Assembly: GCF_000003815.2 (NCBI RefSeq)
Contig: NC_049981.1
Coordinates: 30,544,511 to 30,608,510, forward strand
DNA: 64,000 bases
Direction of reading: 5' to 3'
Origin: Branchiostoma floridae
Taxonomy: Eukaryota; Chordata; Leptocardii; Amphioxiformes; Branchiostomatidae
The position numbers were made by a program, and so were the translations under genes. Of the stretch, positions 772 through 55,580 are shown one piece after another. Position 1 is the stretch's first letter. Each line of letters opens with the position of its first letter. The notes below the pieces were generated by a model, which searched no databases, was not told the origin of the DNA, and saw only the letters and a list, made by a program, of their open reading frames with translations.

Positions 772-3700
772 GTAAGCACCTCAGTGTAAATCTAACACTA
801 GTTCACCTTTATCCATGTGGTAACCTACTGTAAATTCAGAAATGTTCGCGGTGGTTTTATGTTTGCGTTTTTTGCGGACTTAAAATCACTGCGAACATTT
901 TTCCATTATAGTTTTTGACATCAGTCCATGGCGCTACCGCAAACTTAAAACCACTACGAATATCGTGGTTTTATTGGCACAGGGGGGGGGGGGCAAAAAA
1001 GAATAACCTGATTTGTGGTTTCTTTATGTGTCATTTTTTGTGCTTTGAACATAAATTATGTTAGTGCGTCATATCACATGATTAGTTGACTCAAAACTAC
1101 AATGTAACTCACCTCACGCTTCTAAATATGATTTACAGGTACCGTTGTAGAAAGAAATTAACGATGGCTTTCTAAATCTGTTCTCCTTTGGCCTCAGAAT
1201 TGTTATTTTCTTGGACCTGTAAGCCCCAGAACCTTGGACCTGTAAGCCACCTGACTATCTGACAGTACTGTTCATTCTCTAATCAGTCTAAAAACCAGCC
1301 TTAAGCCTTAAACTGCCAGAGTTTCAGCGCTATAAAATGCTATCAGTGCCAGGGTTGGCTGCTGACCTCCAAAAAGAACCCCCCGAACAAGGCCGAAGTC
1401 CCTAACTTCCGGGGTTCGTGCGCTATGCGCGCGCAAAGTTGCTACTTCGGGGGAATACGCTATCCCGGATATATCCGGGTGCGGCACACTGGACATGTAT
1501 ATGTGACGGATTTATCCGGGTTTGGCAGTTTAAGGGTTAAGACTTAACAAGTCTAAAAACCAGTCCTAAGACTACTGATTTTGTTCTGTTTTTTTTTTTT
1601 CTGGTCCATCAAGAAATGCTGGTTTTGACTATAACTTGGAAAACATGTCTCTAATGATGTACCCTATTATGCTTCTCTCTTTCACACCAGGACAAGGAAG
1701 CTACAACTCCTCTATTGGATTTGGTACAGTCTGCCTTAATTATTCTTCCCCCTACTAATACATCCAGGGTAGTTTCATTTGCAGGGCTTGGTCTGAGGGA
1801 GGTGGCTCGCTGGGTTTAATGGGGCTTTTGATATTTATCATGATGAGGCCAAACCAATTCTATTTGACTCTGTTATTTCTCGGATTTTCTCAGAAAAAAA
1901 TTGGGTCGGTCGGTTGAAAAAGAAAATAAAGAAAAAACTTTTGCAAAAAGTAGGGGTTAGGAGAGATCGAGGGGTTTCCTCAAGTCACAGATAATTAAGA
2001 GGGTTCCTGGTAGCAAAGTCAAAGTTTGAAAAAAAAATTATAAACATACTGTCCAAAATAGGCAAGTACAGCTACTGGAATTTGAGGCCCATAGTTAATT
2101 TGAGAAAGGAGAGGCAGTGAAAATTTGTCAACACGTGGTGTACGTGTAGCCATCAATTTGAAATTTTTTTTTTTTAATTGGAAAAAATAGGGTAGGGAAA
2201 TCCGAGAAACTACTAATAAAATTGGTGTGGCCTGATATTCAATACCGTTTCCACAGTTGGGCATTGTGCAGTACCTAGAACTTGACAATTAGAAATGTTC
2301 TTGTAGTATAAATGCATGACAAACACCATAAGATGTAGAATCATATGTTAAGTATCAAAAGCTTTCAAAAACATCAGACTGATATTACATTTTTTTTTTA
2401 CTAACACTATTTTCATCTGGCTTGTGGCCTGCTCCACTTTCATTGGGGAATTCCAATAGAGCATCCTGTAAAATGTAATTATAGGCTTTTTGTGTCAAAA
2501 TCAAGAACACAAAAAGAGAAATAAACAGTCCTGGATTTCCAAAATTTCCCAGAATTGTCAGTATGGTGCAACGTTAATCAGTATACAGGGAAGTTTTTAT
2601 ATTCTTGAGTTAGATTGAAGAATAGGCCACACTATATCATCCTCATCATCATTATTCATCCTCTATTTTGAGGTGCAGCAAGTAAAGTCTAATTTCCAGA
2701 ACTGTCTGTCTCTCATCGCAGTGAGAAGTCCTAATCAGCCCTCTAGGCCAGTTTCTGACTCAATAAGTTTCTTCAAAGTTAGCCTTCGGTGACCAACATG
2801 TTTCTCACTCTACATAAATCAGGTGACCAGAACAGGAGTTTTCCGGCAGAGCCACATGGCCGGCAAGGAGTAGTCGCGTTGTTTAACAACAGAAGTAACA
2901 TTTGGTAATGACCCATGTAGCTGACTATTTGTAATGTGTTTCCACCATGGTGTATCATACACTACCCTTAAAATTCTTGTATAAGTACCATCAAGTTTTT
3001 TGGAGCCACACTTTAAACTGTAAAACCACATGTGCACTGTAGTAATGAGCAACTAAACCAAAAATTGCCCAGGATTCAAAAATGGTTGGAAAAGTAACAA
3101 CCTCATAACTCAAAATACATGTACCACCTTCACATTCAGGAAATTGCAGGTAAAACCAGAGCTGTGCAGGTATTTCTAATTTCTAATGAGTTACAGGCTT
3201 TATACATACAGAAGCACCCTTCAATGTGTCAGATGACAAATTCAAAATGGTGCTACAGTAGAAGCCATTTAATTGCACACACTATTTGCCCGAGCGTATT
3301 TTGTGCCATTATCCGGCTGGTGCAATAATGCGAAGTTGAACCGCGCCGGTTTAGGATTTGGGGATTCCGTACAGTTAACAGAAGTGTGCGTTAATCCATT
3401 GTACAATTAACTGGCTTCAACTGTACTAGGAGTTCAGTTCAGTTACTACTAGGAACATCTTCAAAACATTGTTGTTGCTGTTAAGGAAAAATTAATGCTG
3501 GTAAAATTTGCCCTGGTGACTGGTGACTGATTTTACACCTGTCCAGTGCAGCAAAGAAAAAAAGTCAGTATTTCGAACCACTGACCTGTGCTATCTTCCC
3601 TCCAGGTGGTCAGCCTGGGTACCAGCAGTCCGGCTACCAGCAACTGCCTGCGCCAGGCGGTTACCCACAAGCCCCTGCAGCTGGAGGCTACCCACAAGCC

Positions 3701-6700
3701 CCTGCGGCAGGCGGTTATCCACAAGCCCCTTCAGGCGGCGGCGGCTATCAGCAACCAGCCGCGCCATCTAACATCTACTCCGGCGGTGGCGGTGACCAGC
3801 CCCCACCCCCGGCCCAGCCGGCTGCGCCCAAACCTCAGGTGAGACCAGTGTTCAGGTTACGACATGGTCATATTGTAGGTCTGACGTGTCATAGGGTCTT
3901 GATGTTGATCAACCACTTAGAAGGATCTAGGACAGCTTTTTCCACAATAATAGTCAGCTGAATTTTGTATGGTACATGTACATGTACAACTGTTCGAATA
4001 ACGCCCTCAGATTGCAATCATACAATAATTGTATGACGAGAGTGTCCAGTTGAAGTCCTTAGAAGCAAAGCTTACTATCATTAGGTATGGATACCTGTAC
4101 ACCTAATTAATAAGCTTGCCCAGATAAAACCAAATATTGTTTAAAACTGTCTATGATGAGAAAGAAACCTACATGTATTGTATCTACTTTGCGGAACAAT
4201 GGATAATCTGAATGAAGAGCACCAAGACCTGTAGGTGTGGGTGTTCATACTAGTGTGTTAGATTTTGTATTACATTTACGATATGATTCAAAGTGCATTA
4301 TTATGTATTTTTTTTTTGTGCACCCTGAAGGAAGAACTGCCAGAGGTGAGACCTGCTGTGCCTAGCTGTCTGAGTCTCGCCTTCCCACACTATTGCACAA
4401 ACCTCTGACACTGCGTTTTGCTTCCAGGCTTTTGGGCTCCATCTGCGATTATACCTGTATGCACCTGAACTATGCATGGCCAGTTTGAACATTTGCCGTC
4501 ACTTTTTTATGACAATGAAAGCTTCTATCCCTTGAACTTGAAGTGGCTTTAATTGCTGTGGACACCTACCTTGTTTTTACCATTCAAGATACACCAATTT
4601 TTGATTTTTTAGTTTGTTGGCTCTCGGATTGAAGAAAATTTAAAATTGCTTACCTGGAATAACATAATGTAAACAAAGCCCCAGGACGGGGTTTACTTGT
4701 TACACTCAATTTTATGAAGTGAATACAGTTATATCCTGTTGTGTTTATGATGTCCACTTGCTGTACGTTGTATTTTCACTTTTAAAAAATTAGAGAACCA
4801 AGAAATTAACTTGGTGTGGCCCTATGTCTTAATACAAATGAGAAAGATGATATGATGCCTTCATAAAGAATTCTGCTGAATGACAGTACAATGTCATAAC
4901 CTGACCGAATTGCACTCCAACGGCTTGCACAACGCAGCCAACTCATGAGGTGCATGTAGAGGTTACCCCACAGATGTAAAGGTGAATTTAATATGTAATA
5001 TATTTCTACCGTATTGTCCGTTTAAGTCACCTTTAAGCCGTCTGTGTCTTCATCCCTTCAGGAAGTCCCTGAAGACCCTTTTGCAGGAGAAGAACTTCCC
5101 CGGACACCTACAGATGATGTACCTTTTCTTCTTCTTCTCTCACTAGTTCCTGCATGTCAGCCGTGCTGCTGTAGCTGCAATCAGCCGCTGACAATAAGAG
5201 ATTGTATAACACAGGCATTAAGTGTGGACTGCTGACTGTCATGAGATTTGTGACTTTTGCGCTTATGTCATAAAACATACTGAATTTTCTTCACATTGAA
5301 ACTGGAGTCTGTCTATTATACTAACACTCGTTCACCTTTATCTGTTGGGTAGCTTATATCCATTGTTTTTAAAAATGGTATTTAGGTATTTCAAGTCAAC
5401 AGTGATTTCAAATTGCAATATTTTTATGCGTCCTTTCACTTCATATCTTTAAGTGCCCTGTTTTTAAAGACAACGGATATAGGTTACCCCAAAGATAAAG
5501 GTGAACTAACGTTACATCTCTAGGGTGTTGTTTGCACAGTCACCTGTGTGTACTAGTGCAACGGTAGTGAACTCCTTTCTTGACTCCCTCTGTGTATCAT
5601 TCCTTCAGGAAGTCCCTGAAGACCCTTTTGCAGGAGAAGAACTTCCCTGGACACCTACAGATGATGTACCTTTTCTTCTTCTTCTTCTCTCACTAGTTCC
5701 TGCATGTCAGCCGTGCTGCTGTAGCTGCGATCAGCCGCTGACAATAAGAGATTGTATAACACAGGCATTAAGTGTGGACTGCTGACTGTCATGAGATTTG
5801 TGACTTTTGCGCAAAGCCGCATATATCATAAAACATACTGAATTTTCTTCACATTGAAGTCTGTCTATTATACTAAAACATGTTCACCTTTATCTGTTTG
5901 GTTACCTACATTGTATATCTTTTTTTTAAACAGGGTATCTAGGAATTTCAAGTCAATGGACAGTGATTTCAAGTTGCAATATTTTCAAAGTATTGCATTT
6001 TTAAAACCACTTTTTGCATCCTCTGGCTCCTCTAAGTACCCTGTTTTTAAAAGCAATGGATATAGGCTACCCCACGGATAAAGGTGAACTGACGTTATAA
6101 TCTCTAGGGTGTTGTCTGTACAGTCGCCTGTGTGTACTAGTACAACAGTAATGAACTCCTCTCTTGACTCCCTCTGTGTATCATCCCTTCAGGAAGTCCC
6201 TGAAGACCCTTTTGCAGGAGAAGAACTTCCCTGGACACCTACAGATGATGTACCTTTTCTTCTTCTTCTCTCACTAGTTCCTGCATGTCAGCTGTGCTGC
6301 TGTAGCTGCGATCAGCTGCTGACAATAAGAGATTGTATAACACAGGCATTAAGTGTGGACTGCTGACTGTCGTGAGATTTGTGACTTTTGCGCTTATGTC
6401 ATAAAACATACTGAATTTTCTTCACATTGAAATTCGAGTCTGTCTATTATACTAACACTTGTTCACCTTTATCTGTGGGGTTACCTATATCCGTTGTTTT
6501 TAGAAACTGGGTATTTACAGGGATTTCAAATTGCAATATTTTCAAAATATTACATTTTTTAAAATCACTAATACTTTACACATCCTTTGACTTCATACTT
6601 CGGTATCTCTGTACCCTGTTTTTAAAGACAATGGATATAGGTTAACCCCACAGATAAAGGTGAACTAACGCCATATCTCTAGGGTGTTGTCCGTACAGTC

Positions 6701-9700
6701 ACCTGTGTGTACTAGTACAATGGTAGTGAACTTCTTTCTTGACTCTCTCTGTGTATCATCCCTTCAGGAAGTCCCTGAAGACCCTTTTACAGGAGAAGAA
6801 CTTCCCCGGACACCTACAGATGATGTACCTTTTGTTCTTCTCCTCTCACTAGTTCCTGCATGTCAGCCGTGCTGCTGTAGCTGCAATCAGCCGCTGACAA
6901 TAAGAGATTGTATAACACAGGCATTAAGTGTGGACTGCTGACTGTCATGAGATTTGTGACTTTTGCGCATATGTCATAAAACATGCTGAATTTTCTTCAC
7001 ATTGAAATTCAAGTCTGTCTATTATACAAATGTACTAACACTTGTTCACCTTTATTTGTGGGGTAACCTGTATCCGTTGTTTTTAAAAACTGGATATTTA
7101 GGGATTTCAAGTCAATGAACGGTGATTTCAAATTGCAATATTTTCAAAATATTACATTTTTTAAATCACTGATACTTAAAACATAATTTGACTTCATACT
7201 TCGGTATCTCTGTACCCTGTTTTTAAACACAATGGATATAGGTTACCCCACGGATAAAGGTGAACTAACATTGAATCTCTAGGGTGTTGTCCGTACAGTC
7301 ACCTGTGTGTACTAGTACAACGGTAATGATCTCCTTTCTTGACTCCCTCTGTGTATCATCCCTTCAGGAACCCCCTGAAGACCCTTTTGCAGGAGAAGAA
7401 CTCCCCCGGACACCAATAGATGATGTACCTCTTCTTCTTTTTCTTCTCTTACTAGTTCCTGCATGTCAGCTGTGGTGCTTTAGATGCAATCAGCCGCTGA
7501 CAATGAGGGATTGTATAACACAGGCATTAAGTGTGGACTGCTGACTGTCATGAGATTTGTGACTTTTGCGCTTATGTCATAAAACATACTGAATTTTCTT
7601 CATATTGACATTGAAGTCTGTCCTTTATACTAACAATTGTTCTCCTTTATCTGTGGGGTAACCTACATGTATATCCGTTGTTTTGAAAAACGGGGTATTT
7701 AGGGATTTTAAGTGGACAGACATTTCAAATTGCAATATTTTCAAAATATTACATTTTTTAAATCACTGACACTTCACACATCTTTTGACTTCATGCCGGT
7801 ATCTCTGTACCCTGTTTAAAAGACAATGGATATAGGTTATCCCACGGATAAAGGTGAACTAACGTTGTATCTCTAGGATGTTGTCACCTGTGTGTACTAG
7901 TACAAGGGTAGTGATCCCCCTTGACTCCCTCTGTGTATCATCCCTTCAGGAAGTCCCTGAAGACCCTTTCGGAGGTGAAGAACTTCCCCGGACACCTACA
8001 GATGATGTACCTTTTCTTCTTCTTCTTCTCTCACTAGTTCCTGCATGTCAGCTATCATGCTGTAGCTGCTGCATGGTAGTGCAGTTGTCGTGGGGTGCTT
8101 CATATCTCTGTGCTGCTACTGTGCCTTGTATGTACGTACAGTACATGTAGTTATAATAAAATATACCAGGGTCCTCCCTGTGATTTTTTCACAGCGTAGG
8201 GGGCATCTTAGTGCGGCATGTACAAAATGTAGAGCAGGTGTGGCATCCTCCCCCTGCAAATTCTTAAATGTACAAGCTATAACAATATTTTCTGCATTAT
8301 GAGGGCCAAATTTAATCAACATTTTGTTTTACCTTTCTTACAAAACGACAGAAAAGCCACCGACATGTACTGTATGTTGGTTGAAACGCAATGTACATGT
8401 ACATGTAGGGGTCCAAATCATAGCAAATTAAAGCTACATGTACAGGGGGATACAAGTCACAGCTTAGGGTCCCTGTAGATATACATGCACTGGCGAGAAC
8501 CATGATGTTAGCCACGTTGCTTTTAAATTTGTTGCATGGTAGTGCAGTTGTCCATGCTCTGTGCTGCTACTGTGCCTTGTATGTAGTTACATGTACATGT
8601 ACTATGCACAAGCTTCTCACAGCCCCAATTTACCAGACTGGTGGTTGTAGCTTCTACTGTAAATATGTACAAAGCTGCATTCTACATGTACTCAACTGTA
8701 GTCAAATCTTATTCTGGAGTACTAGAGCTTCATGAAAATGACTCATTATAAGGTATTGTCCTACTGTACATCAGATTCTGTACATCTGTCTTCTTTGCTT
8801 CTCATAGATCTTAAATTATTTTTCCTTGCAATCTGGTTTTCATAACTCAAGTTTACTTTAGGCATATATTTTTTTTAAGTATGCATATTAAAGCACTCAA
8901 TGACTCTTTTAATTAATTACTTTGTAAAGCTGCAATTCACTCCTTCAGGAACCCCCTGAAGACCCTTTTGCAGGCGAAGATCTCCCCCGGACACCCACAG
9001 ATGATGTACTTTTTCCTTCTTCTCTCTGTTATTCGTACATGTCGGCAACAAAGCAAAAAAGCTGCGTTTTATTGCAGTTGTTCTAGATGCTTTGATGTCT
9101 GATTTATTCCGTATCCTACACTGTATCAGTCATATACTTGTAATTCCCTCCATGGCATAAGACACCAGCTTTGCAGGCACAGTGCTGTGGAATAGATGCC
9201 ATATTTTCTGTGCTGCTTTACTGGATACTACAAAATGTACATTCAATTACTACGACTTGCTTTGCTTGTTGCCAACCCTGTTAACATGTACATCAGTCAG
9301 TGTAACTGCACTGTGTCATGGCATACTGGCTTTGCATCTAGTACTGTGGTGTAGAAGAGGCATTCTCTATGCTGCTATGTCTTAGTTTCTGTTTGTTTAA
9401 ACCTTTGTTTATTGCTGTATAATGTATGTTAGCGATTTGTCTTGACCGGACTGCAAGAGCTGTTTGAATGGGAACAAAGCCGCTGTCTGTCATGCTAGTT
9501 TCCCCATCATTCCTGATTTTTGATTTTTTCTTACAGAAACGCACCAACAATCCGTATCCCTGCTTGATTGTTTGCAGACCAATAGAATGCTTCTTACAGA
9601 TTGTTTTCCACAATTTACTTAATAGATATATTGCAGGCTATTAGAATATGATGATTAGCATATGAATATGCTGTACCTATTCATATGCTTCGGCAATCAG

Positions 9701-12700
9701 TTTTGCCTTTGTTTCCAGATGAAGATGATTACACTATATATTTGTATTTGCTTACACTTGTATTTGCAAGCCTTTAGAATGCTTGAAGTGCTTCATATTT
9801 TCAGGCATTTCCATTGTAGGCTCCGCCCCCTCAGCATATATGGTAGTAACCAGTCCTCATTTGCATTTCAAGCTTTGCCCCCCTCACCAAATATGGTAGT
9901 AACAAGTCCTCATTTGCATTTCAGGCTCCGCCTCCTCAGCCTGTCCCACCAACCCACGAGCTGTCCCAGATGTCCCTCGGGGGCTGGCAGCCTGGCCAGA
10001 CCCGCGGCACCGTCGTCCCTACGGAAAACTTCGACGCTGAGGAGGACGCTAAGATCCTACGCAAGGCCATGAAGGGAATGGGTACGTCTTAAGATATTTC
10101 TTGACTTCTTAAATCTACCATAATCTGACTTCAAGATTTCAAATTGAATAGTGTCTGTATTTTGCTTGTTTGAAATGTGAGAACCCATTTTTGCATGATG
10201 TTATTCTGTCTGTGTTGTGCTGTGTTTTGTTTCCCATCACAAAGTGATGAATCCAGGGCACAGTCATAGGTAAAACAATTTAACAACTTCTCCTAGGCAT
10301 TGTCCCATCTCTTTGACATTTTAGTGTCTTAAAGAGCCTATGACATTTTTCAAAAAGAGCCATTGAAAGCAGCAGACTATAAATAACTTCCCTTTTATTG
10401 ACAACAAAGCCATCTTTATTTATAGAAGTAGCAAAACCTTCCTCTTGCCACAGATACATATCGATGAGAAGGCTATGCTGGCTGGCTGAACAAAGTAACA
10501 CTACCCTTTTCAACCTCCTTGCTTAAACATTGTACCTTGATCTGAATGAAACAGCACTGCCAGTCTGTAGGTTTTCCCTGTGACAACCATTCTGTATAAC
10601 AGGTACAGATGAGAAGGCAATCCTGGAATTACTGACTGAACAAAGTAACACTTTAATAAACACTGTACCTTAATGTGAAGGAAACCGCACTGCCCGTTTG
10701 GCAGGTTTTCCCTGTGCTAACAAGACAACTGTTCAATCTGTATAACAGGAACTGATGAGAAGGCCATCCTGGAGCTGTTGGCTGAGCGCAGTAACGCCCA
10801 GCGACAGAAGATCAAGCTGCAGTTCAAGACCATGTATGGCAAGGTGGGGACAGTTTTTTTTTAAAACAAGATAGCAAGGTCATTGTCTCTGTTTTTGTCA
10901 GCAGGGCTAGCCCTTTGTAATAGCCATAGGCTAGTTGGGCAGCCCTGGCTGTGTGTGCTAAGCAGCCAAACCAAGAAATAAAATAGAATAAAAGAGTCTC
11001 TTTATTTAGTGACATACCAACCTGATGAAACTATAATTCATGGATTCCTGATGTCTTGTTTGCTTCCATACATGTACGTGTAGGACCTGATCTCGGACCT
11101 GAAGTCTGAGCTGAGCGGAGACTTTAAGGAGAGTGTGATGGCGTTGTTCGTCCCCACTACGGAGTACGACGCCTGGTGCCTCAACAACGCCATGGTGGTA
11201 CGTAAATTTACATTTACGCTTATCTTCTTATGACATTATTGCCCCATGGTCAAACACCAGCTTCCTAGATGCAATCTTATCTTATTGCTGTAACATATTA
11301 GACAACTTGTCCTGTTTCAGGTGTTGGCAAGATTTATTACATGAAGCAGCTTCTACCACATTGGATGATAAAAAGTTCCGCTCTACAGTATTCAAGAAAA
11401 AACCATCTCTGAAACATGTTAAATCAGGGATTTTGAGACTTACAATTGTCTTTTTTTAACTTAATTATGCTACAATTTTAAGTCCATGTTTATTTCATAT
11501 GGTACCAAAAAGCACACATTGTATGTTTCTGTGTTAACCCATGTTCAAAATGGTGGAACATTCTACAAAATAGAGCAGGACCTTTTTCTCCAGCTCCAAC
11601 TTTTTCATACTCCATGTACAACATGTGACCTCTAGCAGATCACACAGGTACTGCAGGGACATTAATCTCCAAACTCTCCCTCCCTCAGGGCCTGGGCACC
11701 AATGAGGAGGTGTTGATTGAGATCCTGTGCACTCGAACCAACGAGGAGATCGCAGAGATAGTCAGGGTCTACCGCGACAGTAGGTTTTACTTCTTCTCAT
11801 GTGCAAAATGTATCTGTTGTTGTGCTTGCAGGCTTACTTAGGCCATGCCAGTGGATTTACAAAGTCTTGGTTTATTTTTTTTAGATAGAATTTTGCAAGC
11901 AGAAATCATAAAAGCATAGGGCAGGAAGGAAAACTTAAATAAATTTGTATGGGTCAGTATGACCATATTCACTCCATAACACTGAGTGCACCAAGGCATA
12001 AACCTGGTCCTCTGGCTTTGTTTTCATTATGTTATTTCAATTAAGTATATCTTTTAGACCAACAGATTAAACTGATGTGGCCTTAGGATACACGTACCTG
12101 TACAATTTTTGTACTACTAGCCTCCTTTGTGGCATATGAGCGCTTCAGTTTGTTGTTCAATATATTTTGAAAATCACGAATCAGCACTCCCCAGTAGTAA
12201 ACACCAGTGCTCGTGGAAGGCCACGAAGGGGCTGCATATTAGATGGTCTTGTATCTTTTTTTTCTTCCTACCTTTGGTTGCTGTCTTCCTACAAAAAAAG
12301 AGCTGACAGTGTTATTAGAACCGTAGATTGTTACAAAGACCAAATTTAGAACAGAAACAATTCCTCAGCAGGAAAAATGTTAATGAATGAATGAACATTG
12401 CACATTTTTTATGTTGAGCTATAAATACAGATCATGAAAAAACATATTCAATATACATCAAACAGTGTCATTTTTCCCCTCAGAATTCCACCGCGACCTG
12501 GAGAAAGACGTCGTTGGGGACACAAGCGGACACTTCAAGCGTTTGCTTGTCTCCATGACAACGGTAAGGTGTACTGTCAAGTTGTTATATTTTGTCCAAG
12601 TTGTGTTTTGATGAAAACAAAGTGACAATGTGCCAAAAAGTGTTATTCATGTAACTGGATATGATTTTGGAAACGTCAGACGTTTCCTCTGATGTTTCCT

Positions 12701-15434
12701 GGTAGAAAAATGCAAAATCATTCCCAGTTACTTGAGTAACTGCTTTTTTGAATCAGCAGCAACTACAAAGTGAGTGAGTGAGTGAGTGAGTGAGTGAGTG
12801 AGTGAGTGAGTGAGTGAGTGAGTGAGTGAGTGAGTGAGTGAGTGAGTGAGTGAGTGAAAGAGTAAGATTAAGATAAGGTAAAGTTAACATACCTGTCAAC
12901 ATTTGAATGACTAGTGTTGCATTGCAGTGCTCAAAATAGTCTTCTTTCAGACAGGTACCGGTTGCGCCATCAACTTTTTAGCTTCCCAGTAAAGTTGCGC
13001 CAAGCAAAATATGGTTGTGTTTGCAAGTGTGCAATTGGGTATTTCAAGCACTGCATTTTCTTTTCTTTTGTACAATGTAATGTTTGTTTGTTTGTTTGTT
13101 TGTTTGTTGTTTCCTCCAGGCTAACCGAGACGAGGTGAAGGAGGTTGACCTTGAGAAGGCTAAGAAGGAGGCTAAGGAGCTGTACAAGGCGGGAGAGAAG
13201 AAGTGGGGAACGGACGAGTCGGAGTTCAACCGTATCCTCGCCTGTCGCAGCTTCCCACAGCTCAAGGCTACGTTTGACGAATACATCAAGGTGTGTGTTT
13301 ATTTATTTGTTTGTTAAGGATGTGGGCTACATTATGTAGCATCAGATGCAGTTACATGTACAAGCACAGATAAAGATACAGGTACAATGTAGAGGTACGG
13401 TATAGGTACAGGTACAGTTAGAGGACTGGACCTGTACCTATCCTGAACAATTTGACAAAGCCCATCAATTTACTTGGTTCTGAAATTTTTTAAAGTAAAA
13501 ATATAGCAAGCAAACATCATGAAAGCATAGGGTAGGGAGGAACATGACAGTGTGCTCACTTCATAAAACAGAGTGCACCAAGGTATAAACCTGGTCCTAT
13601 GGCTTACTTTTCATAATTTTCAGTCTAGTGAAGCATTTTATTTTTAAATCCAAGAACCAACAATTGAAATTTGTGAGGTCTTACCTGTGGTCTTCAATGA
13701 TGATACCTGCTATAAACATGAATTAACAGTTAACAGAATGTTTCTTTAGGTTTCAGGTATCTTATCATGTTTGCATACTTTTGAGATGATCTCAAATAAA
13801 AGTGTCCGTTATAATATTTTACACAGGTCTCCCAGCGTGACATTATGGGCACAATCGACCGTGAATTCTCTGGACATGTGCGTGATGGGATGAAGGCTAT
13901 TGGTGAGTGAAAATGGATTATTATGTTTACCTTCGTGGAGGGGAAACATATTGTTTTTGCTACATTTCTTCTTCTTCTCCTTCTCCAAACAAATAACCTG
14001 TACCAGATGGCTGTCATAATGTGGAGGTGTTCAGTTACAAAATGTAGCAACTGGCAGCCAGGAGAGAGTGGAGGGGCTGGTCTTCATACACAATGAATGT
14101 GTTTGAGGAAGAATAAACACAGCAGTAGTTTATTAGGCTATACCTTACAAATTTAAACGCTATGTATTTGCTTTCTGTAGTTCTATTTTCTTTTATCTTC
14201 TGCTTGTTCTAGGAATTGATTTATCCACCATTTCTCTGTAGGTTACTGGCGCTGTTAGTCAGGAGCAAGGTCATCTATGGTTAGGGTTTGGTCAGCGAGG
14301 TTGCTTACAGTAACTACAAAGTTTTCAAATTTTGAAACATCAAAGTCAGGAAGTCAGAGTAAAGCAATGAGAGGAGGGCACTGGAGTTAGAATAGGATAG
14401 ATTCTAGGCTAGTTCCATCCCAGTGCCGACTTTGGGTTGGGGAGTGGTTGAGAGCAAAGTTTTGGGAAGGTCCAGACTGCGAGCCCAAAGTTGTACATTT
14501 TGTTGCTGACATTACTGCACTCGGAACTGGTCACTAATGTGATTTTCACCCTTACAGTCATGTGCGTGCGAAACCGCCCAGAGTTCTTTGCTGACAAGAT
14601 CTACAAGTGTGTGAAGGGGCTGGGCACCGACGATCACACCCTGATCCGGGTCATTGTCACTCGCAGTGAGGTAAGTTTAAACCTAGAAGCAAATGAGACA
14701 TAGGAGTTTTCTTTTACACAACCAGTTAATCTCACCTTAGCTGACATTTTGATGTCTGTCAGACATCTTCCTCAGAGCTTCTAACTGGAGTTCTGCTTCT
14801 TGCTGCTATATGTAGCCGATGTAGGTGGCGCTTTTGCGGCGAGAACACTATGATCCCAAACGTGGCTGAGTTTCTTGTCCTATGATCTACCAACCTGATA
14901 AAATTATTTTCAGTAGAAGCGAATGACTTTGGAATAATGCATTTTGCATCATATAGGGTTAGGGACGAGTAAGAAAATATCCTGCATCTGAACAGAAATG
15001 TTTGCTTCCTATCAACTGTAATGCAGTCGTAAGTGATATTTTATCAAGGCCATTTCCATATCAGGATTACATGTATATCAGTGGATTGATTAAATGATTG
15101 ATTGATTGATTGATTGATTAATTAGTTTTTGCACCTGACATTGACAAGGAAAAGAAACATAGTATGTATGTACGTCTACAGGGAAAAAAATATATATATT
15201 TGATAGGCTAATGCTAGTTCTTCCATTCTCTAACTTTACATTGGCCTTAAAGTATTTATTCTATTTCAGTTTGTCAAACTATGTTGTTTTTTTCCCCCAA
15301 TTTCCCAGTATGACATGGTGGAGATCAAGCAGGTGTTCCTGAACAAGTACAGGAAGACGGTGTGGAAGGCCATCGACTCTGACACCAGCGGAGACTACAA
15401 ACGCATCCTGCAGGCACTCGTCAAGAAGGACTGA
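664..15434 (+). CDS. ANXA7/ANXA11-like: Annexin A7/A11-like protein, 5' partial, multi-exon
   Basis: Calcium-dependent phospholipid-binding protein of the annexin family. Exons I support: 664-771, 1691-1723, 3606-3838, seven alternative 57-bp copies (5062-5118, 5609-5665, 6193-6249, 6768-6824, 7368-7424, 7950-8006, 8949-9005), 9925-10081, 10749-10843, 11084-11197, 11689-11779, 12484-12563, 13120-13290, 13827-13902, 14558-14670 and 15309-15434 (TGA stop). Junctions are GT/AG and phases agree throughout. Without the 57-bp exons the visible product is about 464 residues, and each included copy adds 19. The N-terminal arm is rich in Pro, Gly, Gln and Tyr (repeated GGYPQAPA), as in annexins A7 and A11. 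The core has four annexin repeats with GMGTD, GLGTN, KWGTD and GLGTD loops. Repeats I, II and IV keep the type-II calcium motif GxGT plus a downstream acid, while repeat III has Trp in the loop. The 5' end is missing from the window. The long disordered arm suggests condensate or membrane-tethering behaviour as in ANXA11, which is inference. Confidence 0.93.
796..828 (+). repeat. Solo end of MITE-B (TTCACCTTTAT family)
   Basis: CACTAGTTCACCTTTATCC followed by GGTAACCTA matches the terminus of the element at 40893-41107 and of the copies inside the tandem exon array. Only one end is present. Confidence 0.5.
829..1000. mobile_element. MITE-C-like repeat (TACTGTAAAT family)
   Basis: Starts TACTGTAAATTC with GTTCGCGGTGGTT, and carries inverted words such as CCACTACGAA and AAACTTAAAACCACT. 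Related sequence occurs near 41965-42132 and 56579-56685. A 12-G run follows at 982-993. Confidence 0.5.
1307..1535. mobile_element. MITE-D, inverted ends CTTAAACTGCCA
   Basis: Begins CTTAAACTGCCAGAG and ends TTGGCAGTTTAAG, so the ends are inverted repeats. The interior (TATCAGTGCCAGGG, CAAGGCCGAAGTCCC, GGATATATCCGGG) recurs at 58835-59056. The word TCTAAAAACCAG flanks it on both sides (about 1287 and 1551). Confidence 0.7.
1691..1723 (+). CDS. Annexin 33-bp microexon of the N-terminal arm
   Basis: Acceptor CTTTCACACCAG and donor GTACAG bound 33 bp, phase 1 at both ends. It encodes [12 protein letters not shown] once the preceding G is added, continuing the Gly/Tyr/Ser/Gln composition. It is short, so it rests on phase agreement and composition only. 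Confidence 0.65.
1846..2233. mobile_element. MITE-A copy (AGGCCACACCAAT family)
   Basis: Left end AGGCCAAACCAATTC with TTTCTCGGATTT. Right end AAATCCGAGAAA, then AAAATTGGTGTGGCCT, the inverted counterpart. This is the commonest transposon family in the window. Confidence 0.75.
3254..3425. mobile_element. Pogo/Tigger-type MITE
   Basis: Terminal inverted repeats TACAGTAGAAGCC and GGCTTCAACTGTA match at 12 of 13 positions and are TA-bounded, as expected for TA-targeting elements. The interior contains GTGTGCGTTAATCC, mirroring the start. 172 bp, no coding capacity. Confidence 0.65.
3606..3838 (+). CDS. Annexin exon: GGYPQAPA repeat region
   Basis: Acceptor CTTCCCTCCAG and donor GTGAGA bound 233 bp that enters in phase 1 and leaves in phase 0. 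It encodes tyrosine-spaced repeats ([13 protein letters not shown], then GGYPQAPA three times with small changes), a GGGGYQQP stretch and a Pro-rich end ([14 protein letters not shown]). It is the most typical annexin A7/A11 arm sequence here. Confidence 0.9.
4331..4345 (+). CDS. Possible 15-bp microexon (EELPE)
   Basis: A T-run then GTGCACCCTGAAG precedes GAAGAACTGCCAGAG, followed by a strong donor GTGAGAC. Phase 0 at both ends would fit between the exon ending at 3838 and the 57-bp array, and EELP recurs in that array. The acceptor is AAG instead of CAG, so support is weak. Confidence 0.25.
4588..4823. mobile_element. MITE-A copy in annexin intron
   Basis: Left part ATACACCAATTTTT with GTTGGCTCTCGGATT, right part AGAGAACCAAGAAATTAAC then TTGGTGTGGCCCT. 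Internal words (AGTGAATACAG, TTTATGATGTCCACTTGCT) recur in other copies on either strand. Confidence 0.6.
5062..5118 (+). CDS. Annexin tandem exon copy 1
   Basis: 57 bp, phase 0 at both ends, encoding [19 protein letters not shown] after acceptor TCCCTTCAG. The donor is GTACCT, lacking the usual G at +5, so inclusion may be inefficient or regulated. The frame stays open for 38 more codons if the donor is skipped. Confidence 0.6.
5322..5513. mobile_element. MITE-B copy in tandem unit 1
   Basis: TAACACTCGTTCACCTTTAT opens and GATAAAGGTGAACTAACG closes, with inner inverted parts TATCCATTGTTTTTAAA and ACAACGGATATAGG. Equivalent copies lie in units 2-5 (about 5872-6097, 6452-6668, 7036-7269, 7632-7862), so it was inside the unit before amplification. 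Confidence 0.8.
5609..5665 (+). CDS. Annexin tandem exon copy 2
   Basis: 57 bp, phase 0-0, acceptor TTCCTTCAG, donor GTACCT. Same product as copy 1 except Arg to Trp in the ELPWTP segment (CGG to TGG). Confidence 0.6.
6193..6249 (+). CDS. Annexin tandem exon copy 3
   Basis: 57 bp, phase 0-0, acceptor TCCCTTCAG, donor GTACCT. Shares the ELPWTP change with copy 2, suggesting one arose from the other. Confidence 0.6.
6768..6824 (+). CDS. Annexin tandem exon copy 4
   Basis: 57 bp, phase 0-0, acceptor TCCCTTCAG, donor GTACCT. Encodes [19 protein letters not shown] (Ala to Thr). Confidence 0.6.
7368..7424 (+). CDS. Annexin tandem exon copy 5
   Basis: 57 bp, phase 0-0, acceptor TCCCTTCAG, donor GTACCT. 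Encodes [19 protein letters not shown]. The EPP start is shared with the isolated copy 7. Confidence 0.6.
7950..8006 (+). CDS. Annexin tandem exon copy 6
   Basis: 57 bp, phase 0-0, acceptor TCCCTTCAG, donor GTACCT. Encodes [19 protein letters not shown]. Downstream homology to the other units breaks off after TGTAGCTGC, so this is the end of the compact array. Confidence 0.6.
8063..8948 (+). other. Annexin intron between tandem copies 6 and 7
   Basis: AT-rich sequence with partly duplicated words (GCATGGTAGTGCAGTTGTC near 8072 and 8534, TGTGCTGCTACTGTGCCTTG near 8109 and 8561) and TACATGTA palindromes. No exon seen. Confidence 0.5.
8949..9005 (+). CDS. Annexin 57-bp exon copy 7, diverged flanks
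   Basis: Acceptor CACTCCTTCAG, phase 0-0, donor GTACTT. Encodes [19 protein letters not shown]. Against copy 1 it has six substitutions, three of them synonymous, while the sequence past the exon hardly aligns. That is the pattern expected if the coding part is under constraint, and it makes this the best candidate for the ancestral, constitutively used copy. Confidence 0.7.
9820..9924 (+). repeat. Triplicated exon-start module before annexin exon 9925
   Basis: Exon beginnings GCTCCGCCCCCTCAG (9820) and GCTTTGCCCCCCTCACC (9872) precede the real GCTCCGCCTCCTCAG (9925), spaced 52-53 bp. Each pair is separated by ATGGTAGTAAC.AGTCCTC and ATTTGCATTTCA. The first is preceded by TAG, the second by CAA, and the real one by CAG. 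Confidence 0.8.
9925..10081 (+). CDS. Annexin exon: linker and start of repeat I
   Basis: 157 bp, enters phase 0, leaves phase 1, donor GTACGT. It encodes a Pro-rich linker ([17 protein letters not shown]), then [18 protein letters not shown] and the first helix of annexin repeat I ([15 protein letters not shown]). The TRGT...DA..LRKAMKG pattern matches the linker-core junction of annexins A7/A11. Confidence 0.93.
10463..10660 (+). pseudogene. Two decayed tandem copies of the repeat-I exon start
   Basis: GATGAGAAGG at 10463 and 10608 repeats the start of the real exon at 10754 with a period of about 145 bp. The second has an intact acceptor (TGTATAACAG) and reads [17 protein letters not shown] before similarity stops. 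The first has lost its acceptor. Neither covers the full 95-bp exon nor has a matching donor. Confidence 0.7.
10749..10843 (+). CDS. Annexin repeat I, second exon
   Basis: 95 bp, acceptor TATAACAG, donor GTGGGG, phase 1 to 0. Completes the GMGTDE calcium loop and encodes [17 protein letters not shown] and LQFKTMYGK, the second and third helices of repeat I. Confidence 0.95.
11084..11197 (+). CDS. Annexin repeat I end / repeat II start
   Basis: 114 bp, phase 0-0, acceptor GTGTAG, donor GTACGT. Encodes [18 protein letters not shown], with the acidic residue of the type-II calcium site in SELSGDF, then [14 protein letters not shown] leading into repeat II. Confidence 0.95.
11689..11779 (+). CDS. 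Annexin repeat II, GLGTN exon
   Basis: 91 bp, phase 0 to 1, acceptor TCCCTCAG, donor GTAGGT. Encodes [20 protein letters not shown] and EIVRVYRD, a standard annexin repeat helix set. Confidence 0.95.
11838..12086. mobile_element. MITE-A copy in annexin intron
   Basis: Left TAGGCCATGCCAGTGG, right AACTGATGTGGCCTTA, with the family core (AGGGCAGGAAGGAAAACTT, GAGTGCACCAAGGCATAAAC). Ends are eroded. Confidence 0.65.
12484..12563 (+). CDS. Annexin repeat II, GDTSG exon
   Basis: 80 bp, phase 1 to 0, acceptor TTCCCCTCAG, donor GTAAGG. Encodes [20 protein letters not shown] and LLVSMTT. The Asp of GDTSG supplies the downstream calcium ligand of repeat II. Confidence 0.95.
12770..12857. repeat. (GTGA)n microsatellite
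   Basis: About 22 uninterrupted GTGA units in the annexin intron. It should be highly length-variable between individuals. Confidence 0.97.
13120..13290 (+). CDS. Annexin repeat III exon
   Basis: 171 bp, phase 0-0, acceptor TTCCTCCAG after a (TTTG)n run, donor GTGTGT. Encodes [20 protein letters not shown], then [20 protein letters not shown] and CRSF...FDEYIK. The loop reads KWGTD instead of the usual GxGTD. Confidence 0.95.
13448..13684. mobile_element. MITE-A copy in annexin intron
   Basis: Left CATCAATTTACTTGGTTCTG, right CCAAGAACCAACAATTGAAA followed by GAGGTCTTAC, with the family core (AGCATAGGGTAGGGAGGAAC, GAGTGCACCAAGGTATAAAC). Confidence 0.65.
13827..13902 (+). CDS. Annexin repeat III, helix D/E exon
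   Basis: 76 bp, phase 0 to 1, acceptor TTTTACACAG, donor GTGAGT. Encodes [20 protein letters not shown] then GMKAI. REFSGH carries the acidic ligand position of repeat III. Confidence 0.93.
14558..14670 (+). CDS. Annexin repeat IV, GLGTDD exon
   Basis: 113 bp, phase 1 to 0, acceptor CCCTTACAG, donor GTAAGT. Encodes [20 protein letters not shown] then [18 protein letters not shown], an intact type-II calcium loop. Confidence 0.95.
15309..15434 (+). CDS. Annexin terminal coding exon
   Basis: 126 bp, phase 0, acceptor TTTCCCAG. Encodes [37 protein letters not shown] and VKKD followed by TGA. SDTSGDY supplies the last calcium ligand. The end is typical of annexins. Confidence 0.95.
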   Translation, partial: YDMVEIKQVFLNKYRKTVWKAIDSDTSGDYKRILQALVKKD

Positions 15435-21881: not shown

Positions 21882-54851
<32,970 letters not shown>

Positions 54852-55580
54852 CTGTAATAGCCAATAAGAGCCTGCAATTAGTGTCATGTGACCAAAACCA
54901 ACCAATCAGCAGCAAGAGTTTTCTCAACTTTCTCATACTCATCATCTGTGCAGTTGTCACCTGTAATGGCCAATCAGAGCCTACAATTAGTGTCTTGTGA
55001 TCAAAACCAACCAATCAGCAGCAGGAGCTGTCTTAAGTTTTTCACACTCTTCATCTGTGCAGTGTCACCTGTAATGGCCAATCATAACTCACAATTAGTG
55101 TCATGTGATCAAAACCAACCAATCAGCAGCAGGAGCTGTCTTAAGTTTCTCATACTCCTCATCTGTGCAGTTGTCACCTGTAATAGCCAATCAGAGCCTA
55201 CAATTAGTGTCATGTGGTTACAATCAACCAATCAGCTGCAGGCATTGTCTAAATTTTTTCACACTCTTCATCTGTGCAGTTGTCACCTGTAATGGCCAAT
55301 CATAGCCTACAATAAGTGTCATGTGATCAAAACCAACCAATCGGCAGCAGGAGCTGTCTTAAGTTTTTCACACTCTTCATCTGTGCATTTGTTACCTATA
55401 ATGGCCAATCAGGGCCTTCAATAAGTGTCATGTGATCAAAACCAACCAATCAGCTGCAGGAGCTGTCTAAAGTTTCTCATACTCCTCATCTGTGCAGTTG
55501 TCACCTGTATTGACCAATCAGAGCCTACAATGAGTGTCATGTGATCAAAACCAACCAATCATCTGTGAAGTTTGTCACCT
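54852..55580. repeat. About 110-bp tandem array copying an EF-hand exon acceptor
   Basis: Units contain CTCATCTGTGCAGTTGTCAC, CTGTAATGGCCAATCAGAGC, AGTGTCATGTGATCAAAACC and AACCAATCAGCAGCAGGAGC. On the minus strand each has ATTACAG followed by GTGACAACTGCACAGATGAG, equivalent to the acceptor plus first bases of the exon at 54851. About seven units. Confidence 0.92.

Follow-up and report, generated by a model that had tools for sequence, protein, structure and literature searches.

This study concerns a gene of the annexin family in the lancelet Branchiostoma floridae and an array of seven exon-like copies, each of 57 nucleotides (nt), that is contained in one of its introns. The analysed stretch of DNA, in the following termed the window, comprises 64,000 bases (C3:30544511-30608510) of a genome assembly of 513,431,437 bases in 431 contigs. 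The gene encodes an annexin, as had been recognized in a preliminary description of the sequence, and its core contains four annexin repeats: the translation of nine exons located between 9925 and 15434 matches the Pfam profile Annexin (PF00191) in four stretches with a score of 303.7 bits (cut-off 25). The best relative of this region among solved structures with a single core is annexin A7 (8w5s, 401 bits), the next single-core chain scoring 322 bits, and the two-core annexin VI reaches 599 bits as a sum over two stretches, with 305 bits in the best single stretch. Among solved single-core annexins, the core thus appears nearest to A7, which suggests an A7-like protein. Upstream of the array, the gene codes for a long arm rich in Gly, Pro, Gln and Tyr, of which 124 residues, three of them charged, lie inside the window. 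Candidate further stretches of this arm, recognized by their composition only, are found upstream of the window (locus L008), as is a run of N. The exons of the gene that bear on the array and the seven putative exon copies are as follows (a slash marks an exon end).

3606..3838, + strand: upstream arm exon, Gly/Pro/Gln/Tyr-rich, ends in phase 0 (CAG/GTGAGA)
5062..5118, + strand: copy 1, 19 residues, open
5609..5665, + strand: copy 2, R14W, open
6193..6249, + strand: copy 3, R14W, open
6768..6824, + strand: copy 4, A8T, open
7368..7424, + strand: copy 5, V2P and T17I, sharing variants in codons 2 and 12 with copy 7
7950..8006, + strand: copy 6, A8G, followed by the end of the unit homology at 8069
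8949..9005, + strand: copy 7, V2P and E11D, older, with decayed flanks
9925..10081, + strand: downstream exon, end of the arm and start of the first annexin repeat, starts in phase 0
10749-10843, 11084-11197, 11689-11779, 12484-12563, 13120-13290, 13827-13902, 14558-14670, 15309-15434, + strand: other eight core exons

All seven copies (starts 5062, 5609, 6193, 6768, 7368, 7950 and 8949), which had been described as phase 0-0 sequences of 57 bp, were found between the exon ends at 3838 and 9925, and each is free of stops in its frame. Any number from zero to seven would preserve the reading frame, as claimed initially, because the upstream exon ends and the downstream exon starts in phase 0. 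Length and phase are those of a cassette, the skipping of which leaves the frame intact, and the presence of homologous exon-like copies in tandem within one gene conforms to a tandem exon duplication, provided that the copies are exons. The 19 encoded residues follow the consensus E-V/P-PEDPF-A/T/G-GE-E/D-LP-R/W-TP-T/I-DD. With seven or eight charged residues, a net charge of -6 or -7, one DPF (Asp-Pro-Phe) and one Thr-Pro in each copy, and a charge of -44 in all seven, the number of included copies would shift length, charge and motif number of the arm jointly. A degenerate 21-mer with up to three mismatches detects five of the seven copies, where 0.02 matches are expected from shuffled sequences. 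No place outside the array encodes the 19-residue peptide in the 513-Mb assembly (seven candidates and seven matches, all in the array), and consequently no retrocopy displaying a spliced form was seen. Likewise, ten loci round other annexin matches and two located upstream of the window did not contain any convincing relative of the exon, the best match having an E of 0.22.

Two local duplications were observed elsewhere in the gene. A 53-bp repeat of 1.9 copies at 9826-9927 doubles the region round the acceptor of exon 9925, and the intron preceding exon 10749-10843 holds two decayed partial copies of that exon (10463-10499 and 10556-10649, about 74% identity), one of which retains its upstream flank.

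Weak donors followed by pyrimidine tracts

Each of the seven copies is preceded by a CAG acceptor and followed by a donor in the context GAT/GT, which reads GTACCT in six cases and GTACTT in copy 7. With 11-13 pyrimidines in 16 positions, the acceptors resemble those of the gene's other exons (10-14 of 16). In contrast, the calculated energy of the duplex with U1 amounts to -0.7 kcal/mol for all seven array donors compared to -5.3 to -11.2 kcal/mol for the other 11 donors of the gene in the window, making the former the weakest of 18. In a matrix score based on human frequencies, the array donors reach 1.58-1.80, and one donor of the same gene (1723, GTACAG) is slightly lower (1.41).

What distinguishes the array donors further is the sequence that follows them. 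Between 18 and 20 of the 20 bases after each are pyrimidines, whereas none of the 11 other donors is followed by 18 or more. Such a tract is found after 14 of the 3825 GTs on the + strand of the window, and seven of these 14 are the array donors. The arrangement is represented by the following feature, with a like one after every copy.

5119..5144, + strand: weak donor GTACCT and pyrimidine tract of copy 1

A weak donor with a pyrimidine tract within about 20 nt is the arrangement expected in sequence for a 5' splice site activated by TIA proteins. According to passages in PMC2766253, tracts located up to 20 nt from weak 5' splice sites compensate for their weakness in most metazoans via TIA, and a compensation of this kind is also described in part of PMC2964331. 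At a pairing energy of -0.7 kcal/mol, the donors would need a helper, for which the adjoining tract is the visible candidate. The earlier proposal that weak donors suit optional inclusion was thus correct with respect to their weakness, but incomplete as an argument since it did not provide for such a helper. PTB usually represses, and the CU-rich make-up of the tracts would suit this protein equally. Either activation of the TIA type or repression by PTB would make the exons regulable.

In copies 1-6 the tract ends in CTAG, a possible acceptor. The AG is gone in copy 7, whose tract nevertheless persists. A second acceptor-like motif, TCTCACTAG (TCTTACTAG in copy 5), was noticed after the tract in copies 1-6 and was not found in copy 7.

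5138-5146, 5688-5696, 6269-6277, 6844-6852, 7447-7455, 8029-8037: acceptor-like motif TCTCACTAG/TCTTACTAG of copies 1-6

Two alternative exon definitions were rejected. Better-scoring GTs downstream of copy 1 (5221 and 5155) would generate exons of 160 and 94 nt, which both break the frame. A coding extension beyond the donor stays open in several copies, but its changes mostly alter amino acids and copy 7 does not contain a similar protein sequence, as judged by eye.

The same intron probably contains a microexon, to judge from its sequence. When short exons with an open frame in phase 0 and strong splice sites were sought, a single match was obtained in 3839-9924, compared to two on the + strand and none on the - strand of the whole window. 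Its interpretation as remnant of an eighth copy was discarded since the region 4250-4500 aligns to the unit no better than shuffled sequences, 255 of 500 of which reach its score.

4331..4345, + strand: candidate microexon encoding EELPE (GAAGAACTGCCAGAG, 15 nt, phase 0-0), with a T-rich tract before the acceptor and the donor GAG/GTGAGA

Repeat units, foldback transposons and possible sequence constraint

Copies 1-6 are embedded in units of about 550-600 bp, whose homology stops at 8069 after copy 6. Copy 7 can be aligned to the units over 8936-9046 only, which bears out the initial remark that its downstream flank has diverged, and no alignment to the units was obtained for its flanks beyond this stretch. 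Upstream of copy 1, a diverged remnant of a unit is still recognizable, and the five introns between copies each hold a palindromic element. As single strands, these elements fold with energies of -71 to -95 kcal/mol, and the one following copy 3, which was the element compared to shuffled sequences, has a z of -14.7.

4957..5032, + strand: diverged remnant of a transposon right arm and unit tail (score reached by none of 300 shuffles)
5330..5506, + strand: foldback transposon resembling a miniature inverted-repeat transposable element (MITE), after copy 1
5882..6089, + strand: foldback transposon after copy 2
6461..6665, + strand: foldback transposon after copy 3 (hairpin z -14.7)
7044..7265, + strand: foldback transposon after copy 4
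7639..7859, + strand: foldback transposon after copy 5

A search of the assembly with the element gave 1927 first-look candidates. The 40 that were scored yielded 92 match rows at 40 distinct places, three of them in the array. Being palindromic and present at many dispersed places, the element is a dispersed transposon that does not belong to the annexin itself, and with its short length it has the features of a foldback MITE. Small RNA genes in the units were considered and rejected, as five Rfam matches (E up to 5, 3500-10200) all remain below the gathering scores; the best of these sub-threshold matches are to long-hairpin microRNA families and are located on the foldback element.

The introns between copies 1-5 diverge by 6.5-14.8%, which exceeds the heterozygosity of 3.2-4.2% given for amphioxus species in parts of PMC12500494. 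The copies are therefore probably not alleles that were assembled end to end. Copies 1-6 thereby represent a young array, whereas copy 7 is older. Since copies 5 and 7 share their variants in codons 2 and 12, both may retain an older state.

We next consider the constraint on the copies. Relative to copy 1, copy 7 has changed at six of 57 sites, three of them synonymous, in agreement with the preliminary count. In its alignable flanks, 17 of 64 positions have changed in the same comparison (p 0.036). The respective numbers of changes in exon and flanks are 7 and 17 against copy 2 (p 0.067), 7 and 18 against copy 3 (p 0.043), 7 and 20 against copy 4 (p 0.016), 4 and 21 against copy 5 (p 0.0006) and 8 and 18 against copy 6 (p 0.077). 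The exon of copy 7 is thus quieter than its flanks in six of six comparisons and significantly so (p below 0.05) in four, with flanks cut at the end of the local alignment, sites taken as independent and the six related comparisons left uncorrected. These numbers moderately suggest constraint on the exon of copy 7.

The quietest stretch of the unit is located in the intron. Starting about 70 nt past the donor, it has as few as one variable position in 57 gap-free columns among copies 1-5, compared to seven of 57 in the exon. In the assembly search, a stretch of 120 bases round this block matched five places, all of them within the array. The block may either act in splicing or have been homogenized by conversion.

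5190..5259, + strand: most conserved intronic block, copy 1 (starts in the other units 5740, 6321, 6896 and 7499)

Several observations concern other sequences. About 1.4 Mb away, another annexin gene contains direct duplications: positions 8469-9583 of locus L010 recur at 1010-2123 of L011 (1116 bp, 99.6%), and positions 217-908 of L011 recur at 2484-3175 of the same locus (692 bp, 99.9%), the latter repeating an annexin-repeat exon. They may be either real or an artefact of the assembly, which contains 1196 N across the two loci. Within the window, an open frame on the - strand (51098-51439) resembles a mariner-type transposase in its N-terminal portion, two open frames at 25315-26666 with repeated TPGYYGN/HTWLLW segments are probably a minisatellite, and overlapping open frames on both strands at 54505-55292 show internal repeats, with an EF-hand-like stretch on the - strand, all as judged by eye.

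Proposed optional inclusion of the copies and its alternatives

The direct observations described so far comprise the sequence of the copies, their phases, donors and tracts, the transposon and the order of the units. From these, we tentatively favour a reading in which the seven copies are optional coding exons of the A7-like annexin gene that are spliced in at variable number from donors depending on a TIA-type factor; that at least one copy is a working exon appears probable. In the proposed mechanism, the arm exon ending at 3838 would be joined to a variable number of copies and then to the core exon starting at 9925. The acceptors would be recognized normally, whereas base pairing alone would not suffice to keep U1 at the poor donors, whose use would depend on a protein like TIA bound to the adjoining tract. 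The number of included copies would then be set by the amount of this protein or of a competing one, for instance PTB. Each of them would add its 19 acidic residues (net -6 or -7) with one DPF and one Thr-Pro to a nearly uncharged arm, and in this way the cassettes could tune its self-association and contacts. The array itself may have grown by tandem duplication of the unit including its foldback transposon, most likely by unequal crossing-over. The reading is favoured by the open state and phase 0-0 of all seven copies between two phase-0 exon ends, by the weak U1 pairing and the pyrimidine tracts that set the array donors apart from the gene's other 11, by the retained tract of copy 7 and its exon, quieter than the flanks in six of six comparisons, by the compensation through TIA described for such tracts, and by the regulated cassette of mammalian annexin A7.

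A number of points weigh against it. The absence of stops is uninformative, as only about 2-3% of single changes would create one. By matrix score, 119 of 410 intronic GTs, including those of the array, match or exceed the array donors, and since all but one of the seven donors, with their tracts, are of recent common descent, they amount to about two independent observations. Copy 6 contains a stronger internal donor (GAG/GTGAAG at 7974), the use of which would lead to a frame-shifting exon of 25 nt. If compared to the 41 downstream nt alone, which include donor and tract and could be under constraint as well, the exon of copy 7 is significantly quieter in one of six cases (copy 5, p 0.010). 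Among the changes inferred across seven copies, six are non-synonymous and six synonymous, where about 71-75% non-synonymous ones are expected (p 0.06-0.10, a trend). In gap-free columns of copies 1-5, to which this comparison was confined, leaving out copies 6 and 7, seven of 57 exonic and 92 of 450 other positions are variable (p 0.16). Finally, inclusion in mRNA, the factors involved and the effect on the protein are predictions from the sequence. The constraint proposed in the preliminary description is thus upheld for copy 7, with p ranging from 0.0006 to 0.077, but not as a general property of the array, and it is for copy 7 that the argument moderately holds.

Latter restriction is central to the strongest alternative, which we regard as somewhat unlikely. 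It assumes that copy 7, and perhaps copy 1, is an ordinary single cassette and that copies 2-6 are a recent neutral expansion, which is open because it is young. Such an expansion would account for signs of constraint in copy 7 only and for an exon whose conservation in copies 1-5 does not significantly exceed that of the remaining unit, and it agrees with the R14W change common to copies 2 and 3 and the frame-shifting donor of copy 6. The decayed copies of exon 10749-10843 illustrate that duplicates arise and rot at this locus. Against it stands the retention of frame, acceptor, GTAC donor and tract in every copy, despite the intron divergence of 6.5-14.8% among copies 1-5.

Donors of near-background quality, the small number of changes to judge from, the location of the most conserved block in the intron and the moderate constraint on copy 7 could also indicate that the copies are not exons at all, but an intronic repeat that is open by chance and flanked by AG and GT. 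We consider this improbable, as the phases fit upstream and downstream and each of the seven copies combines acceptor, donor and tract, including copy 7, whose outer flanks cannot be aligned.

A mutually exclusive choice of one copy by competing hairpins of the transposon arms, which would loop out intervening exons, is very unlikely. For the five elements, each of the 25 combinations of a left with a right arm has a pairing energy in the range of -50 to -85 kcal/mol, compared to a mean of -16 kcal/mol if one arm is shuffled (200 times), and duplicated stem-loops are proposed as origin of competing structures in exclusive exons in parts of PMC6071210. Still, the local hairpins are about as stable as the distant pairings and would form first, for which reason we rate looping as a modifier at most. 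Moreover, little would be gained from choosing among near-identical copies, the frame permits double inclusion, and looping by the arms considered, which are those of introns 1-5 and do not include another left arm at 801, would be confined to copies 2-5. Least likely of all is the constitutive inclusion of all seven copies as a fixed acidic repeat of 133 residues, which would be in line with symmetric exons and with acceptors similar to the others in this gene but is at odds with donors whose U1 pairing is far weaker than that of the other 11 in the window.

Returning to optional inclusion as the preferred reading, an extended version would describe the array as a splicing counter, where the dose of a pyrimidine-tract factor grades the inclusion of up to seven acidic DPF cassettes together with the EELPE microexon, and with it the charge (about -6 per copy) and valency of the arm, hairpins bias the looping and the number of copies varies between individuals; in this full form it is improbable as well. 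Compared to the initial observations, the U1-weak donors with their tracts, the likely 15-nt microexon and the cross-intron pairing of transposon arms have been added. If copy number in transcripts is indeed variable, the gene would offer a natural titration series of one annexin with zero to seven near-identical acidic modules. This would permit direct tests of how charge and valency of the arm affect phase separation, membrane tethering and adaptor binding, and it would illustrate the expansion of a transposon-bearing intron unit into an exon array.

Relationship to known cassettes and exon arrays

The cassette of human annexin A7 also sits just before the core, as do the copies in the lancelet gene; we know of no sequence likeness between the two exons, whose sequences were not compared. 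As described in parts of PMC1087847, the N-terminal domain of mammalian annexin A7 contains a single cassette exon under tissue-dependent regulation, giving rise to isoforms of 47 and 51 kDa, with skeletal muscle containing the long form alone. The lancelet gene resembles this system in that its candidate optional exons belong to the N-terminal domain of an annexin of the A7 type and differs in having seven copies instead of one. In agreement with the earlier statement that no described annexin with such an array was known, none was found in titles and the starts of abstracts among open-licence papers on annexin or tandem exon duplication.

Binding of DPF to AP-2 can proceed through single motifs. 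With repeated Asp-Pro-Phe in a chain outside of folded domains, the array is reminiscent of DPF repeats of the Eps15 type, for which binding to the SGIP1 domain is described in a portion of PMC4731787 to involve two DPFs with linkers of two to five residues. As 16 residues separate the motifs of the array, this two-DPF mode is not expected, and a role of the arm in adaptor binding is a possibility suggested by analogy.

Arrays of short exons that are neutral in phase, and of which any number can be skipped, are familiar from schistosome micro-exon genes, the PEVK region of titin and nebulin, from all of which the lancelet gene differs by seven near-identical copies within one annexin intron. 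PMC9013439 cites a proportion of about 10% of animal genes for tandem exon duplications and also describes that in Drosophila hydra the transposon DINE-1 flanks seven of the nine first exons. The lancelet array shares with these duplications homologous tandem exons and similar introns, and a foldback element following five of its copies is comparable to DINE-1 in hydra. Unlike the well-known tandem duplications, where a choice is made among diverged exons, the lancelet copies are nearly identical, and it would therefore be their number rather than their identity that matters.

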